Assembly (NCBI RefSeq): GCF_007474535.1 | Contig: NZ_VKNW01000013.1 | Coordinates: 1-64,000, forward strand | Direction of reading: 5' to 3' | Length of the DNA: 64,000 nt | From: Chryseobacterium echinoideorum | Lineage (GTDB): Bacteria; Bacteroidota; Bacteroidia; Flavobacteriales; Weeksellaceae | Shown: positions 2,888 to 9,219 of the stretch, in pieces | Layout of the letters: every line of letters starts with the position of its first letter | How positions within the stretch are numbered: the stretch's first letter is position 1 | Made by a program: the position numbers and the translations under genes | The notes under the pieces: generated by a model | The model's input: only the letters and a program-made list of their open reading frames with translations | The model's database searches: none | Told to the model about the DNA's origin: nothing

Positions 2888-3766
2888 ATGAAAACAAGAA
2901 CTCCAATATCTATATATATTGCTCTTACCATTGGGATCATCATCATGGCATTTGAAATGTTCGCACAGGATTCCGATTACTTATCTACACCTATATTTTG
3001 GGCATTGCTGATTATTGTAACCATCTTATTGCTCATTATGAACTCTATCGGAGATTTGGTGGAAAACGAAAGGTTCAGCAGATTGACAGATGAAGAAAAG
3101 CGTCTGTATATTACAGATAAAAACACACCGTATGTACAGAAACTCTGGAATTCAGCATTCAAAAAGCAGTCACAGTCCGAAGAAACTGACATTCTGATTG
3201 ATCACGGTTTTGACGGCATTACCGAACTCGACAATTCTTTACCTAAATGGTGGATCGGGCTTTTTTATTTCGGAATTATCTTCTGCGGCGTTTACATGAT
3301 TGCATTTGCTTTTACAGATTATGCACATCCAGAGGCAGAGTATGATAAGGAAACAAAAATTCAGCTGGCTTCTATAGAAGAATACGAAAAAAATGCGCCA
3401 CCTATCAATCTGGAAACAGCAAAATACAGCGCAGATTATATTTCTGAAGGCGAGCAATTGTTTAAAACCAATTGTGTAACCTGCCACGGCGACAACGGAA
3501 AAGGAGGAATTGGACCTAACCTCACAGATAATCACTGGATCAACATCAAAGAAAAAAGCTTATTCAAAAATGTTTTCTGGATGCTTGAAAATGGTTCGCC
3601 CAACAATCCAACTATGCGTCCGTTTATTAAAGAAGGAACCATCACAGGAAGAGATGCCGAAAAAATTGCATCTTACATCTATCATATTAACCAGGAAAAA
3701 TCACCAGTTACACAAGCTCAGGGAGGTGCAGCTCCACAAGGCGAAGCTGTAAAATGGAAAGAATAA
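2888..3766 (+). CDS. ccoP: cbb3-type cytochrome c oxidase subunit III
   Basis: A 292-residue membrane-anchored cytochrome c that passes electrons to the CcoNO core. Hydrophobic segments lie near residues 7-25, 36-55 and 121-142. A periplasmic cytochrome c domain follows, with one CVTCH heme motif (C196, C199, H200) and a probable Met ligand in NPTMRPF. Classical proteobacterial CcoP has two hemes; only one CxxCH is visible here, as in the shorter Bacteroidetes form. The tail is rich in Gln, Gly and Ala. It lies 18 bp after ccoNO and is surely co-transcribed. The transcript probably ends near the hairpin at about 3910. Confidence 0.95.
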   Translation: MKTRTPISIYIALTIGIIIMAFEMFAQDSDYLSTPIFWALLIIVTILLLIMNSIGDLVENERFSRLTDEEKRLYITDKNTPYVQKLWNSAFKKQSQSEETDILIDHGFDGITELDNSLPKWWIGLFYFGIIFCGVYMIAFAFTDYAHPEAEYDKETKIQLASIEEYEKNAPPINLETAKYSADYISEGEQLFKTNCVTCHGDNGKGGIGPNLTDNHWINIKEKSLFKNVFWMLENGSPNNPTMRPFIKEGTITGRDAEKIASYIYHINQEKSPVTQAQGGAAPQGEAVKWKE

Positions 3767-3809
3767 TTACTCATTTTAAATATATAATTTATGAATTGAA
3801 TCTCCATCA

Positions 3810-3935
3810 GATGTATGTCGCGGTTGTAACTCAACTAACATCTGAAAACCTATTCACTTTTTTTAAATATTCCATAATATTTAAGATCAGCCGAGGCATA
3901 CATCAAAAGAACCTGTTCGTTTGAACAGGTTTTTC
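3810..3935 (+). ncRNA. structured RNA candidate resembling 6S (6S-Flavo type)
   Basis: In the ccoP-tamB spacer, positions 3810-3823 (GATGTATGTCGCGG) pair with 3891-3904 (CCGAGGCATACATC), giving 13 of 14 pairs including one G-U. Inside is a perfect 9-bp hairpin, with arms 3863-3871 and 3876-3884. A strong intrinsic terminator hairpin follows at once. A closing stem, an AT-rich internal bubble, an apical hairpin and a terminator is the architecture of 6S RNA, which mimics an open promoter and binds RNA polymerase. The short 6S-Flavo class known in Flavobacteria is about 100 nt, matching the roughly 95 nt here. The pairing is directly visible; the 6S assignment is inference. An alternative pairing of the 5' arm (TCAGATGT with ACATCTGA at 3840-3847) also exists. 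Confidence 0.5.
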
Positions 3936-3938
3936 TTA
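3909..3938 (+). terminator. intrinsic terminator after the structured RNA
   Basis: AACCTGTTC, a 4-nt loop, then GAACAGGTT followed by TTTC forms a 9-bp stem with a short U-rich tail. It would end the structured RNA and possibly read-through from ccoP. Confidence 0.7.
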
Positions 3939-4148
3939 TTTCGGAAAAGTACCACATTTTTATATTCTTACCATAAAATGCAGCAATTGGCAAAAATTTT
4001 GCTTAAATGAAGTAACAGCTTTAAAAAAGACTGCCATAAAATAAATAAATAAATAAATCATGCTAAAACTCATTACATTTCAAATTCTGAAAATATAAGA
4101 CATCCATAATTTCATGCCCGTGAGTTACCCTCACATTTAATCCGAATT

Positions 4149-4156
4149 GTATATTT
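4149..4156 (+). promoter_or_regulatory. -7 promoter box of tamB
   Basis: TATATTTG matches TAnnTTTG exactly. It lies 17 nt before the TTG codon at 4174 and overlaps the alternative TTG codon at 4147, which favours 4174 as the true translation start. Confidence 0.5.
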
Positions 4157-4173
4157 GTCTAAATCACAGAAAC

Positions 4174-7100
4174 TTGAAACTGAAATTTAATAAAAGAAAA
4201 ATTCTCAGAGGTGTTGTTATAACAATCACCTCCATCATTGTTTTAATCATACTTCTCGTCCTTAGTCTCAGGCTTCCCGCTGTACAAAACTATGTAAAAG
4301 ATAAACTTGTTGTATATCTGGAAGGTAAAATCAAAACAAAAGTAAGTTTGGATAAAGTTTACATTGGTTTTCCCAACAGTATCATAATGGAAAATTTGTA
4401 TCTGCAGGGGCAAAAAACCGATACCCTTCTTGCTGTCAGAAAATTTGATGTTGGTCTCAATATGTGGCAGCTGATGAAATCCAAGGCGGATATTACTTCA
4501 ATTGATTTGGAAGGAGTTCGTGCAAATGTTGTCAGAAAACCGGACGGAAAATTCAATTTCGATTATATAATTGATGCTTTCGCTACTTCAGATGAAGAAC
4601 AGGAAAAGAAACCTTCAAAACCTTTCATTATTTCTTTAGATAAAATTAAACTAAAAGATATAGGTCTTACCTTCAATGATCAACAATCAAGAAACGACAT
4701 CAAAGTTTATTTTAAATCTTTTGATACAAGAGTACAAACGTTTGATCTTCAAAACAACAATTATGCAGTCAACGATATTAATCTTGACGGATTAAAATTA
4801 AAATTAAAGCAGGATCTGGTAGAAGAAGTTGCTAAAAATGTCGAAGAAAAAGTAGATTCTCTGAATCAGAAAAAACCTATGAAATTAGGTTTAAACGGAA
4901 TAAAGCTAACCAATTTTGATGTAGATTACGGTGATGATAACACCAAAACTTTTGCAAAAGTTCTATTTAAAGAACTCAGCACCAAAGTCAACAGCATTGA
5001 TCTGGAAAACAATAATTATAATATTGGAAATGTTTATCTGACCGGAGCAAACATCAATGCCAATCTTTTTCTTCCGGCAGACAATGCAAATCCTAAAAAT
5101 CAGAATGATCCGGATCCGGCAAAATCTTCGGAGCAACAACAAGCAATGAATCTTGTTTTAGGGAAACTTCTATTAGATGATGTAAAAGTAGCTTACAACA
5201 ATACAGCTATTGCCCCCACAAAAAACGGAATGGATTTTAATCATCTGAATTTTTCTAAACTCAATCTGGATGTCAGAAATTTTAAAATGCTGAACGGTAC
5301 TTTTGCCGGAAGTGTAAAATCTGCAGAAATCCAGGAAGCGAGAGGTTTGAATGTACAAAAATTTAACACCGATTTTGTGTATGCCGAAAAAGAAGCTTAC
5401 CTCAAAAATCTCTATTTGCAAACTCCAAAAACGGTTTTAAGAGACGAGGTTATTTTAAATTATAATTCGATTGAACAATTATCTTCCAATTTGGGAGCAG
5501 TAAAAATTTCAGCTGACATCCGCGATTCTAAAATCGGATTTTCTGATATTCTTACTATTGTTCCTACTTTACGAAACACAGCACCATTCAACAAATATCC
5601 TAATGCCACTTTGAATGTGAATGCTATTGTAAGAGGAAATATCAACGATTTATCTATTCAAAACCTGAAGGTTTCAGGATTAGACAAACTCAGGGTTTTG
5701 GCTTCGGGAAAAATCAAAAATGCAACAAATCCTGACCAACTGTATTACAATTTGAATGTGGCGGAACTATCCACAGCATCTAAAACGATTTATAATCTCG
5801 TTCCGAAAAATACTATTCCAAGCAATATAACATTACCTTCGTTCTTAACTATTCGTGGAACAGCAAAAGGAACCACACAGGTTGTAGATACCAACCTTCG
5901 CCTTACTTCTACATTGGGGAATGCTGCCGTAATTGCCAAAGCCGATTTACGAAGAAAAAACAGAGAAACTTTCGATGTGAAAGCCAATCTTCAAAATTTA
6001 CAGATCGGAAAAATAATCCAGAATAAAGATCTGGGAAGCATCACAGCAAAAATCAATGCTAAAGGACAAGGTTTTGACCCGAAAATAATGACTGCTAATT
6101 TAAGTGGCGATGTACAATCTGCAACTTATAATGGATACACTTATCAGAACATGAATCTGAAAGGAAAAATCACTCGTGGTGTGTATGATATTGATTTAAA
6201 CTCCAAAGATCCGAACGCTAATTTACATCTTGCCGCTTCCGGAGTTTTCAATGACAATCCGACTGTGAAAGTTAATGGAAACATCAACAAATTAGACTTA
6301 AACAAGCTTGGTTTTTACAGTTCGCCGATGATTATTGCAGGCGGAATTGACGGAGATTTTACAAACCTTGATCCCGATCATCTGAACGGTTATCTGAATC
6401 TTCAGGATTTTGCCATTTCCGATACAAAAGAAGTATATCCGCTTCAGGAAGTGAGACTGAATGCAGTGTCTACCGCTGATTCTACTTTAATAAAACTCAA
6501 TTCGCAGATTGCCGATGTTGAACTTAACGGAAAATATAAATTAACTCAGATATTCGGAGCTTTATCACAAACAATTAATCAGTATTATCAGTTTCAGAAG
6601 CCAGATCCAAATCAGAAAATTGATGCCGGACAGTTTTTTACCCTTAATGCCTCAATTAAAAATGATGACCTCATCAGAAAATTTGTTCCGGATCTGAAAA
6701 GTTTTGAAACCATTACTATTACAGGAAATTATAATGCAGATTCCCAGAATATAGAGCTTGATGCAAAAATCCCACAGGTTTTATATGGCACAAATTCCCT
6801 TGAAAATACCAGTCTGAAAATTACCAATGAAAATCAGGCATTGCAGTATAATTTGAATGTTACCTCATTGAAAAGCGAAAGTTTTGCTTTGAATAAAGTC
6901 AATATCAATGGTGATGTTGCCCAAAATACCATCAATTATAATATTGCAACGAAAGATGAAAAAGATGAAACGCAGTTTCTGATTGCCGGAAATGCGAAAT
7001 CTATGAACGACATTACAGAAATTTCTTTAAATCCAGATGGTTTAAAACTAAATTATATGGATTGGGCGGTTGATGAAAACAATAAAATTCAGATTTTCAG

Positions 7101-9219
7101 TCAGGGAATTGTAGCAGATCAGTTCAGGCTTTCCAACTCGGGAGCAGAAATTACTCTTCAGTCTGAGAGCAATTCACCAACTAGCCCGCTGAATGTTTCT
7201 CTGAAAGATTTTAAAATTGAAACCATTACGGAAATCATCAAAAAAGATTCGCTTTTGGCAAAAGGAACTATCAACGGAACTGCGCAACTGAGAGATTTAA
7301 CTAAAAATATGACCTTCACATCAGATATTGATGTTACCGATTTATTTGTCTTCGGAAATCCTGTAGGAAACCTTGATATTAAAGTCAACAATCAGTCAGC
7401 GAATCTTCTGAATGCAGATATTGTACTTTCAGGAAATAATAATGATGTGAAAATCTTAGGAACATACAATACTTCTGCAAGCAGTTTTGATTTGGATTTA
7501 AATATGAATCAGCTTCAGATGAAAACGCTGCAAGGCTTTACCATGAACGCAATTAGCAATACAGAAGGGCACCTCTCCGGAGATTTAAAAATAACTGGAA
7601 CTACTGAGGCACCGAGAATCTTAGGTGACGTAAAAATGAATAATGTAGGAATGATGATTTCCCAGACAGGAAGTGATTTCAGAAACATTAATGACAAAAT
7701 AAGTTTTACCAGCCGCGGAGTAGAATTTGATGATTTTAAAATCAATGATAAAGACGGAAATTCTCTCAATATTGACGGCCAGGTGCTCACAACAACCTAC
7801 AGAGATTTTGCTTTCAATCTGGATGTAGACGCAAAAGATTTCAAAGTTGTCAATTCAGAGAAATCAAATGATGCTATAATGTATGGAATTCTGGCAATAG
7901 ATGCTGCTTTACAGGTAAGAGGAAATTTAGACCTGCCCAGAGTTGACGGAAGATTGGCGGTGTCAGAAACTACTGATTTTACTTTTGTACTTCCTCAATC
8001 TTCGCCTTCATTACAGGAAAGAGATGGAATTGTAGAGTTTATTGATCAGGATCAGGTAGAATTAACCAAAACCATCAAAGATGATTCTATTGATTCACAG
8101 ACCAACCTCAAGGGAATGGATGTAAATGTGAATATTGAACTAAGCAAAGAAGCAAAAATGTCGATTATTATTGATAAAGCCAACGGAGATTTTGTAAAAC
8201 TTCAGGGTGAGGCAGATCTCACAGGAGGAATAGATCCTTCAGGCAAAACCACTTTGGTAGGAGTTTATCAGGTAGAAAAAGGAAGCTACGAAATGTCCGT
8301 GAGTCTTCTAAAAAGAAAATTTGACATCCAGAAAGGAAGCACCATTACCTGGACGGGTGAGCCTACCACTGCCGATCTCGATATTACTGCAGTTTATAAA
8401 ACTGAAACGGCACCAATTGACTTGGTAGAACAGCAGTTTTCGGGTAATCCTTCTGAGTTGAATCAGTTTAAGCAGAGAATCCCGTTCAATACTTTATTGA
8501 TTCTGAAAGGCGAGTTGCTAAAACCTCAGATCAGTTTTGATATTACAACTGATGAAAAAAACAATGCGGTATCTTCTAATGTAACCGAAACTATAGATGG
8601 TAAACTTGCTCAGCTGAGGGAAGATGAAAATGAAATGAACAAACAGGTTTTTGCTTTATTGCTCCTGAATCGTTTTATTGGCGAAAATCCTTTCCAAAGC
8701 AATTCCGGATTGTCTGCTGAGACTATGGCAAGACAGAGTGTGAGTAAGATTCTTTCTCAGCAGCTTAATAATTTAGCTTCAGATTTGATCAAAGGGGTTG
8801 ACCTCAACTTTGATCTGGAATCTACAGAAGATTATTCTACCGGAACACAGAATACCAGAACAGATCTGAATGTTGATGTCAGCAAAAGATTATTAAACGA
8901 CAGGTTAAAAGTATCTGTTGGAAGCAACTTCGGGCTGGAAGGAGAAACCAGACAAAATGAAAACACCACCAATATTGCAGGTGATGTAACCATAGATTAT
9001 GCACTTTCAAGAGACGGAAGATATACTTTAAGAGCTTACCGAAAAAACGAATATCAGGTTGCTTTGCAAGGACAGATTGTAGAAACAGGGCTTGGATTTG
9101 TAATTACCCTAGATTATGACAAATTCCGGGATATATTCAGAAAGTCCAGAAATAACCGAAACAGAGAAGCCATCGAAAACAAAAGAAAAAAAGACAAAGA
9201 AGCTGTAGAATTCAAATAA
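4174..9219 (+). CDS. tamB: translocation and assembly module protein TamB (DUF490)
   Basis: About 1,681 residues. An N-terminal membrane anchor (hydrophobic run VVITITSIIVLIILLVLSL, about residues 14-32) is followed by a very long periplasmic region of beta-rich, AsmA-like repeats. The C-terminal 400 residues read as the TamB/DUF490 domain (for example LVGVYQVEKGSYEMSV, and the end rich in Arg, Lys and Asn). TamB-type proteins bridge the inner and outer membranes and assist outer-membrane protein insertion and lipid transport. A TTG at 4147 would add nine residues, but the -7 promoter box overlaps it. The TTG at 4174 gives the expected LKLKFNKRKI start just before the anchor. The BamA-like lipoprotein gene follows after about 120 bp, the usual Bacteroidetes tamB-tamL pairing. 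Confidence 0.9.
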   Translation: MKLKFNKRKILRGVVITITSIIVLIILLVLSLRLPAVQNYVKDKLVVYLEGKIKTKVSLDKVYIGFPNSIIMENLYLQGQKTDTLLAVRKFDVGLNMWQLMKSKADITSIDLEGVRANVVRKPDGKFNFDYIIDAFATSDEEQEKKPSKPFIISLDKIKLKDIGLTFNDQQSRNDIKVYFKSFDTRVQTFDLQNNNYAVNDINLDGLKLKLKQDLVEEVAKNVEEKVDSLNQKKPMKLGLNGIKLTNFDVDYGDDNTKTFAKVLFKELSTKVNSIDLENNNYNIGNVYLTGANINANLFLPADNANPKNQNDPDPAKSSEQQQAMNLVLGKLLLDDVKVAYNNTAIAPTKNGMDFNHLNFSKLNLDVRNFKMLNGTFAGSVKSAEIQEARGLNVQKFNTDFVYAEKEAYLKNLYLQTPKTVLRDEVILNYNSIEQLSSNLGAVKISADIRDSKIGFSDILTIVPTLRNTAPFNKYPNATLNVNAIVRGNINDLSIQNLKVSGLDKLRVLASGKIKNATNPDQLYYNLNVAELSTASKTIYNLVPKNTIPSNITLPSFLTIRGTAKGTTQVVDTNLRLTSTLGNAAVIAKADLRRKNRETFDVKANLQNLQIGKIIQNKDLGSITAKINAKGQGFDPKIMTANLSGDVQSATYNGYTYQNMNLKGKITRGVYDIDLNSKDPNANLHLAASGVFNDNPTVKVNGNINKLDLNKLGFYSSPMIIAGGIDGDFTNLDPDHLNGYLNLQDFAISDTKEVYPLQEVRLNAVSTADSTLIKLNSQIADVELNGKYKLTQIFGALSQTINQYYQFQKPDPNQKIDAGQFFTLNASIKNDDLIRKFVPDLKSFETITITGNYNADSQNIELDAKIPQVLYGTNSLENTSLKITNENQALQYNLNVTSLKSESFALNKVNINGDVAQNTINYNIATKDEKDETQFLIAGNAKSMNDITEISLNPDGLKLNYMDWAVDENNKIQIFSQGIVADQFRLSNSGAEITLQSESNSPTSPLNVSLKDFKIETITEIIKKDSLLAKGTINGTAQLRDLTKNMTFTSDIDVTDLFVFGNPVGNLDIKVNNQSANLLNADIVLSGNNNDVKILGTYNTSASSFDLDLNMNQLQMKTLQGFTMNAISNTEGHLSGDLKITGTTEAPRILGDVKMNNVGMMISQTGSDFRNINDKISFTSRGVEFDDFKINDKDGNSLNIDGQVLTTTYRDFAFNLDVDAKDFKVVNSEKSNDAIMYGILAIDAALQVRGNLDLPRVDGRLAVSETTDFTFVLPQSSPSLQERDGIVEFIDQDQVELTKTIKDDSIDSQTNLKGMDVNVNIELSKEAKMSIIIDKANGDFVKLQGEADLTGGIDPSGKTTLVGVYQVEKGSYEMSVSLLKRKFDIQKGSTITWTGEPTTADLDITAVYKTETAPIDLVEQQFSGNPSELNQFKQRIPFNTLLILKGELLKPQISFDITTDEKNNAVSSNVTETIDGKLAQLREDENEMNKQVFALLLLNRFIGENPFQSNSGLSAETMARQSVSKILSQQLNNLASDLIKGVDLNFDLESTEDYSTGTQNTRTDLNVDVSKRLLNDRLKVSVGSNFGLEGETRQNENTTNIAGDVTIDYALSRDGRYTLRAYRKNEYQVALQGQIVETGLGFVITLDYDKFRDIFRKSRNNRNREAIENKRKKDKEAVEFK

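Follow-up and report, generated by a model that had tools for sequence, protein, structure and literature searches.

The stretch of DNA analysed here, a window of 64,000 nucleotides (64 kb) from Chryseobacterium echinoideorum, opens with an accessory operon for a cbb3-type oxidase, all of it encoded on the plus strand. The first gene, ccoNO (590–2869), specifies fused oxidase subunits I and II, as indicated by the Pfam domains COX1 and FixO within a single open reading frame of 759 aa. It is followed by ccoP1 (2888–3766), the gene for oxidase subunit III, which is recognised by the Pfam domains FixP_N and Cytochrome_CBB3. The downstream gene on the same strand is tamB (4147–9219), with a Pfam TamB match on 4177–9216 and a promoter-like TATATTTG at 4150–4157, by its start. 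A structured element occupies the spacer between ccoP1 and tamB. A short leader (3767–3809) runs from the ccoP1 stop to the closing stem, and the stretch TATGAATTGAATCTCCA lies immediately 5' of that stem. The form of the locus found here is referred to below as the window type.

The fold of this spacer is unusually stable. Positions 3800–3940 reach -43.4 kcal/mol, compared with a mean of -18.7 (sd 3.4) for shuffled sequences (z -7.24), and none of 200 shuffles was as good. The 99-nt structured core alone folds at -28.4, a value equalled by 12 of 2557 windows of 98 nt taken in 25-nt steps across the 64 kb, the element's own windows included. In the plus-strand fold, the element is closed by a stem of 16 pairs (3810–3826/3888–3904), consisting of ten pairs (3810–3819/3895–3904), a single mismatch (3820/3894) and six further pairs (3821–3826/3888–3893). 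Enclosed by this stem are a conserved loop, ACTAACATCTGAAAACCTATTCAC (3834–3857), which is a candidate seed or protein site, and an inner hairpin of 11 bp (3861–3886, pairing 3861–3871 with 3876–3886) whose own loop lies around TTCCATAA. The core motif CTATTCACTT is located at 3850–3859. The loop 3834–3857 is predicted to be unpaired save for a weak 4-bp hairpin, TGAA/TTCA (3843–3846/3853–3856), favoured by the energy model; the core motif would therefore be partly hidden in the window type, since this small hairpin would engage its UUCA with UGAA. An intrinsic terminator with a 12-bp stem (3907–3918/3923–3934) and a T-rich tail completes the element (3907–3939), and reading of window-type relatives found it there as well.

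The initial annotation had described a compact structured non-coding RNA with a strong terminator directly after it in the ccoP-tamB spacer, and this description is borne out by the fold and by covariation, the terminator appearing in the fold with its stem and T-rich run. The helices it listed are real, but their lengths were understated: the closing stem, given as 14 positions with 13 pairs, has 16 pairs on folding, and the inner hairpin, given as a perfect 9-bp helix, has 11 bp.

Evolutionary evidence for the structure comes from window-type rows drawn from the ccoP1 loci of the genus. The alignment holds 12 distinct cores from 15 spacers, three spacers with an identical core forming one row and locus L078 standing outside the alignment. 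Both-sided changes occur at 6 of the 16 closing-stem pairs, so the compensatory changes that the initial annotation had proposed to seek in relatives' spacers are present. These amount to 10 both-sided cells against 2.5 in shuffles, and none of 500 shuffles reaches 10, the rows being close relatives and the shuffles ignoring kinship. Slid-stem controls give 0–3 pairs with both-sided change. Only 2 of the 16 pairs never vary and 14 do, yet the loop is nearly fixed: 23 of its 24 positions are unvarying across all 12 aligned rows, with one row lacking one A, and every one of the 15 window-type spacers contains CTATTCACTT. None of the 12 rows shows any change in the inner hairpin (9 of 9 pairs counted), on which covariation therefore has no bearing. 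The closing stem and the loop together are a conserved RNA structure.

The possibility of a switch through two competing pairings of the 5' arm had also been raised in the initial annotation. Such an RNA would act as a switch or attenuator controlling tamB or the operon, and the second pairing does exist, as CAGATGT is able to pair with ACATCTG. This alternative is 10.6 kcal/mol worse, however, and its helix shows no double change in the alignment, with 4 of 84 cells failing to pair. Moreover, the terminator and the promoter-like site stand between the element and tamB, and in one form of the locus (form C, described below) the next gene is not tamB. On grounds of energy and the missing covariation we reject the switch and consider it very improbable.

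The window type is one of several forms. The arrangement in most of the species examined is a tandem pair of terminator-like stems with T tracts, B1 and B2. B1 is built as GCCCCC...GGGGGC followed by a T run, with a loop containing CUAACAU and ACCUUUUCA, and B2 as ccUUGGCUG...CAGCCAAgg, with a loop containing UUCACUUGAC and AUUCCAU. Among the B spacers, ACCTTTTCA is found in 44 of 52 and CTAACAT in 38 of 52. The B2 and C forms have in common with the window type the shorter motif TTCACTT, part of the core motif, which is found in all 15 window-type spacers, 51 of 52 B spacers and all three C spacers examined for it. The B2 stem covaries too: an alignment of distinct B2 sequences (30 of 46) contains 5 both-sided pairs and 16 both-sided cells versus 4.8 in shuffles, with 0 of 500 shuffles as high (again ignoring kinship), and slid-stem controls in this alignment give 1–4 pairs. 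Six sequences with wrong cuts were excluded from the B1 profile, and two B spacers (L064, L074) outside the cutting rule were recovered by R2, the search model for B2.

The 5' loop of the window type is similar to B1, and its 3' half to B2. Local similarity to B2 beats all 200 shuffles for loci L007 and L018, and 1–9 of 200 shuffles are equally good for L014, L015, L027, L034 and L078. For B1, no shuffle equals the similarity of L007, L018 or L027, whereas 34 of 200 do so for L034. Model R2 does not detect the window type at E ≤ 1. Given these uneven shuffle results and the silence of R2, sequence comparison makes it likely, though not proven, that the window type is a B1/B2 mosaic, with a significance that varies by sequence.

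Form C is found in five genomes (G171, G163, G059, G011, G143), in which a reduced element comes after ccoP1 and the gene beyond it is not tamB. The motif CTATTCACTT is present in C loci L063, L075 and L079 and, by reading, in L200; it is not in L201. R2 scores the C elements weakly (L063, L075 and L079 at E 0.15–0.87, L063 and L075 on the reported strand of the stored locus), and C is therefore grouped with the other forms by layout, motif and position. Because C genomes keep the element after ccoP1 without tamB next to it, a role as a tamB leader is ruled out. The product of the gene that follows in form C begins like MNxKPLHTFHIPVMGLAYTIDTP (L063, L075, L079, L200, L201), and a similar open reading frame also stands after ccoP1 in one genome of genus g28 (L096).

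The distribution of the RNA was assessed in a family sample of 296 genomes with R2 and with R1, the model for the window type, under stricter filters by which some weak matches are lost. R1 matches 13 of 296 genomes and R2 matches 126 of 296, in each case with one match per genome and in 1 of 33 sampled genera; within this sample the RNA locus is confined to Chryseobacterium. All 13 R1 matches lie on the ccoP1 strand, 39–54 nt downstream of the gene. Likewise, all 115 R2 matches with a known ccoP1 coordinate lie on its strand, 118–361 nt downstream, 11 of the 126 matches having no such coordinate and being left out of the count. In a search of named genomes, the exact 24-base loop was found in eight records, all Chryseobacterium, including C. 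balustinum, C. formosense and C. luquanense. A repeated or mobile element is ruled out by the single match in each matching genome, and the exact motif CTATTCACTT...TTCCATAA has a single occurrence in its own genome.

The linkage is specific to one of two oxidase loci. The same genome has a second ccoP (ccoP2), with 52% identity, which is followed by a different sequence without element motifs (L091), and the element therefore belongs to the accessory operon of ccoP1. Reading of six genomes without ccoP1 (G073, G081, G089, G144, G145, G031) found no element after the remaining ccoP2, and in the nearest genera having a ccoP1-like gene, g28 and g42, none of the core motifs follows it at the six loci inspected. 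At the ccoP1 locus of genome G071 (L202), the best match spans residues 62–291 only, with an in-frame TGA, and B1 and B2 downstream look intact.

Promoter signals were considered through TAnnTTTG, which we take to be the flavobacterial -7 promoter consensus. Between ccoP1 and the element or its loop, it is missing from all 15 window-type spacers and found in 1 of 46 B spacers; the interval between B1 and B2 lacks it in all 46. The longer stretches that lead downstream toward tamB contain it in 52 of 61 cases. Its absence upstream of the element favours co-transcription with ccoP1, although this is the only consensus tested and one missing consensus leaves other promoter types possible. A free-standing sRNA gene would need its own non-consensus promoter just 5' of the stem, and the sequence TATGAATTGAATCTCCA, identical there in 12 of 15 window-type spacers, could be read in that way. 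Against such a gene stand the lack of TAnnTTTG at this place in 15 of 15 window-type spacers and the linkage to ccoP1, which persists in C genomes despite their different downstream side; we regard it as unlikely. Between the element and tamB, the stretch TTGGCAAAAATTTTGC (3987–4002 of the window) has the pattern GG-N10-GC and resembles a sigma-54 site or a short dyad. All 15 window-type spacers have it, compared with 5 of 52 B spacers and none of 3 C spacers.

The initial annotation had proposed that the element is a 6S RNA of the short 6S-Flavo class. The 6S RNA has a central bubble resembling an open promoter, binds RNA polymerase and serves as a template for product RNAs. The element shares with 6S a length near 100 nt, a long closing stem and a large loop region, which is asymmetric here; nothing ties that region to promoter-like sequence. 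The search with the Rfam 6S-Flavo model suggested in that annotation speaks against the identity. At the gathering score, there is no Rfam match anywhere in the 64-kb window, and 6S-Flavo (RF01685) and other 6S families are absent even from a permissive Rfam list (E up to 10) for 3600–4200. Fifteen related spacers yielded nothing but one weak miRNA match (E 0.36). The genome has a 6S-Flavo candidate at another place, G000:C30:15863–15967 (L001 1501–1605), with 48.8 bits and E 1.7e-6, under the 85-bit cut-off; it also matches Bacteroidales-1 with 39.7 bits. It is flanked by a small ORF before it that is presumably ZapA and a long ORF after it that we take to be ribonuclease Y. Given this candidate, the 85-bit cut-off may miss Chryseobacterium 6S. 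Additionally, R1 and R2 find the element in no sampled genus beyond Chryseobacterium. Compared with 6S-Flavo and Bacteroidales-1 (RF01693), the element is alike in being a structured RNA of about 100 nt with a long stem in the same phylum, but it has no sequence-structure match to them, and the 6S-Flavo-like RNA of this genome lies elsewhere. The missing match and the separate candidate rule out the 6S-Flavo label; the 6S reading is already contradicted and retains next to no probability.

Possible targets of the loop were sought in several ways. For the window type, two complementary 16-mers were searched in 7 genomes with up to 2 mismatches against a control, which was the reversed sequence for the first 16-mer. 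The first is not enriched, with 55 matches (7 of them the element itself) versus 56 for the reversed control; the second has 43 matches (7 again the element itself) versus 24. No start-codon site is common to the loci read, which comprised 50 for the first 16-mer, repeats and the element itself included, and 30 of 43 for the second, again including the element itself. By reading, the only homologous cross-genome pairs are L155/L166, inside one reading frame, and L174/L175, antisense to one. A duplex scan of the loop over the 64-kb window gave best energies near -20 and no standout besides the element's own antisense strand.

For the B1 loop, the complement GTTGAAAAGGT has 71 matches in 12 genomes (12 of them the elements themselves) versus 83 for the reversed control. 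Among the 63 loci read, some of them the elements themselves, one site is common to 8 of 12 genomes and precedes by 30–37 nt a gene that we take to be DUF59/SufT-like. This site sits in the last codons of an upstream exonuclease-like gene. The six window-type genomes checked all lack it, and G144, a genome without ccoP1, has it intact. It is ruled out as a target because coding conservation explains it, the window type lacks it and it stays intact without ccoP1. A promoter-like TTAACTTTGG lies just before the DUF59/SufT-like gene, within the 3' end of the exonuclease-like gene (L281–L310), and is conserved at the DNA level in the majority of the 30 loci inspected, other genera included. In the genomes searched, none of the approaches yielded a convincing target.

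The arrangement by which 3'-UTR-derived sRNAs are recognised, a same-strand position immediately after a coding gene and an intrinsic terminator at the end, is seen in the element. We infer from sequence how it is transcribed and processed, which regulatory role it has and what it binds. It would form the structured 3' tail of the ccoNO-ccoP1 mRNA, the transcript of the accessory cbb3-oxidase operon, with which it is most likely co-transcribed as far as its own terminator. A stem-loop of roughly 95–130 nt, either released or protected, would then serve as a small regulatory RNA, in which the covarying closing stem presents a nearly invariant G-poor loop (ACUAACAUCUGAAAACCUAUUCAC, core UUCACUU). 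By binding target mRNAs or an RNA-binding protein, this loop would signal that the oxidase operon is being expressed. A conserved G-poor loop on a drifting stem fits a pairing or protein-binding RNA, and such a loop would be superfluous in a simple terminator. The restriction to one genus in the sample tells against this reading, as does the predicted pairing of part of the core in the window type.

A simpler explanation is that the element acts only in cis, with stem and terminator ending transcription and shielding the oxidase mRNA from 3' exonucleases, and has no role in trans. The position directly 3' of ccoP1 agrees with this explanation, as do the two elements of B genomes, themselves terminator-like stems with T tracts, and the target searches, which returned nothing convincing. 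Stabilising an mRNA or terminating transcription calls for a stem but leaves the loop free to vary. In the window type, however, 14 of 16 stem pairs vary and 23 of 24 loop positions do not; this type also has a separate terminator. With a conserved loop but no convincing target, the chances that a trans-acting regulatory sRNA is released from the 3' UTR of the ccoNO-ccoP1 mRNA appear evenly balanced, and a purely cis-acting element is possible, if less than probable.

Respiration genes are tied to post-transcriptional control by oxygen- or iron-linked sRNAs of other bacteria, such as FnrS and NrrF, to which the Chryseobacterium RNA is likened by analogy only. Closer comparisons exist in the same phylum. 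According to PMC11697453, FopS-14 of Bacteroides is a 3'-derived sRNA and thus a precedent, belonging to FopS, a family of 14 members with a 5' single-stranded seed. Both RNAs, the element by prediction, lie at the 3' end of a coding transcript, and both have a terminator and a conserved stretch; the element differs in having one match per genome and a conserved loop enclosed by a covarying stem, features read from sequence. Rfp18 of Flavobacterium, as described in PMC9723704, is a structured sRNA conserved in its genus, so that both are structured flavobacterial RNAs conserved within a genus; the genus differs, and the two are set apart here by description, not by sequence. In a partial literature search by title and the start of the abstract, no publication on this RNA was found.

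Taken together, the forms of the locus allow a broader reading, which we hold tentatively. The accessory cbb3-oxidase operon may carry at its 3' end a genus-wide, previously undescribed respiratory RNA locus with one or two loop-presenting stems: B1 and B2 in most examined species, a B1/B2-like mosaic in the window clade and a reduced form C elsewhere. Its stems would drift in a compensatory manner as its loop code (UUCACUU, CUAACAU, ACCUUUUCA) stays largely fixed, and it would be an sRNA hub riding on oxidase expression. If true, this hub would lie in a phylum with little-charted sRNA regulation.

The tempting but wrong 6S label is corrected here for the element beside ccoP1. Regulation by small RNAs is still sparsely mapped in Flavobacteriia, and the series of B1, B2 and mosaic forms suggests that such an RNA is being rearranged inside one genus. 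An RNA with one match per genome, a covarying stem and a nearly fixed loop, tied genus-wide to a single respiratory operon, offers a defined, easily mutated handle on the post-transcriptional control of respiration in this group.
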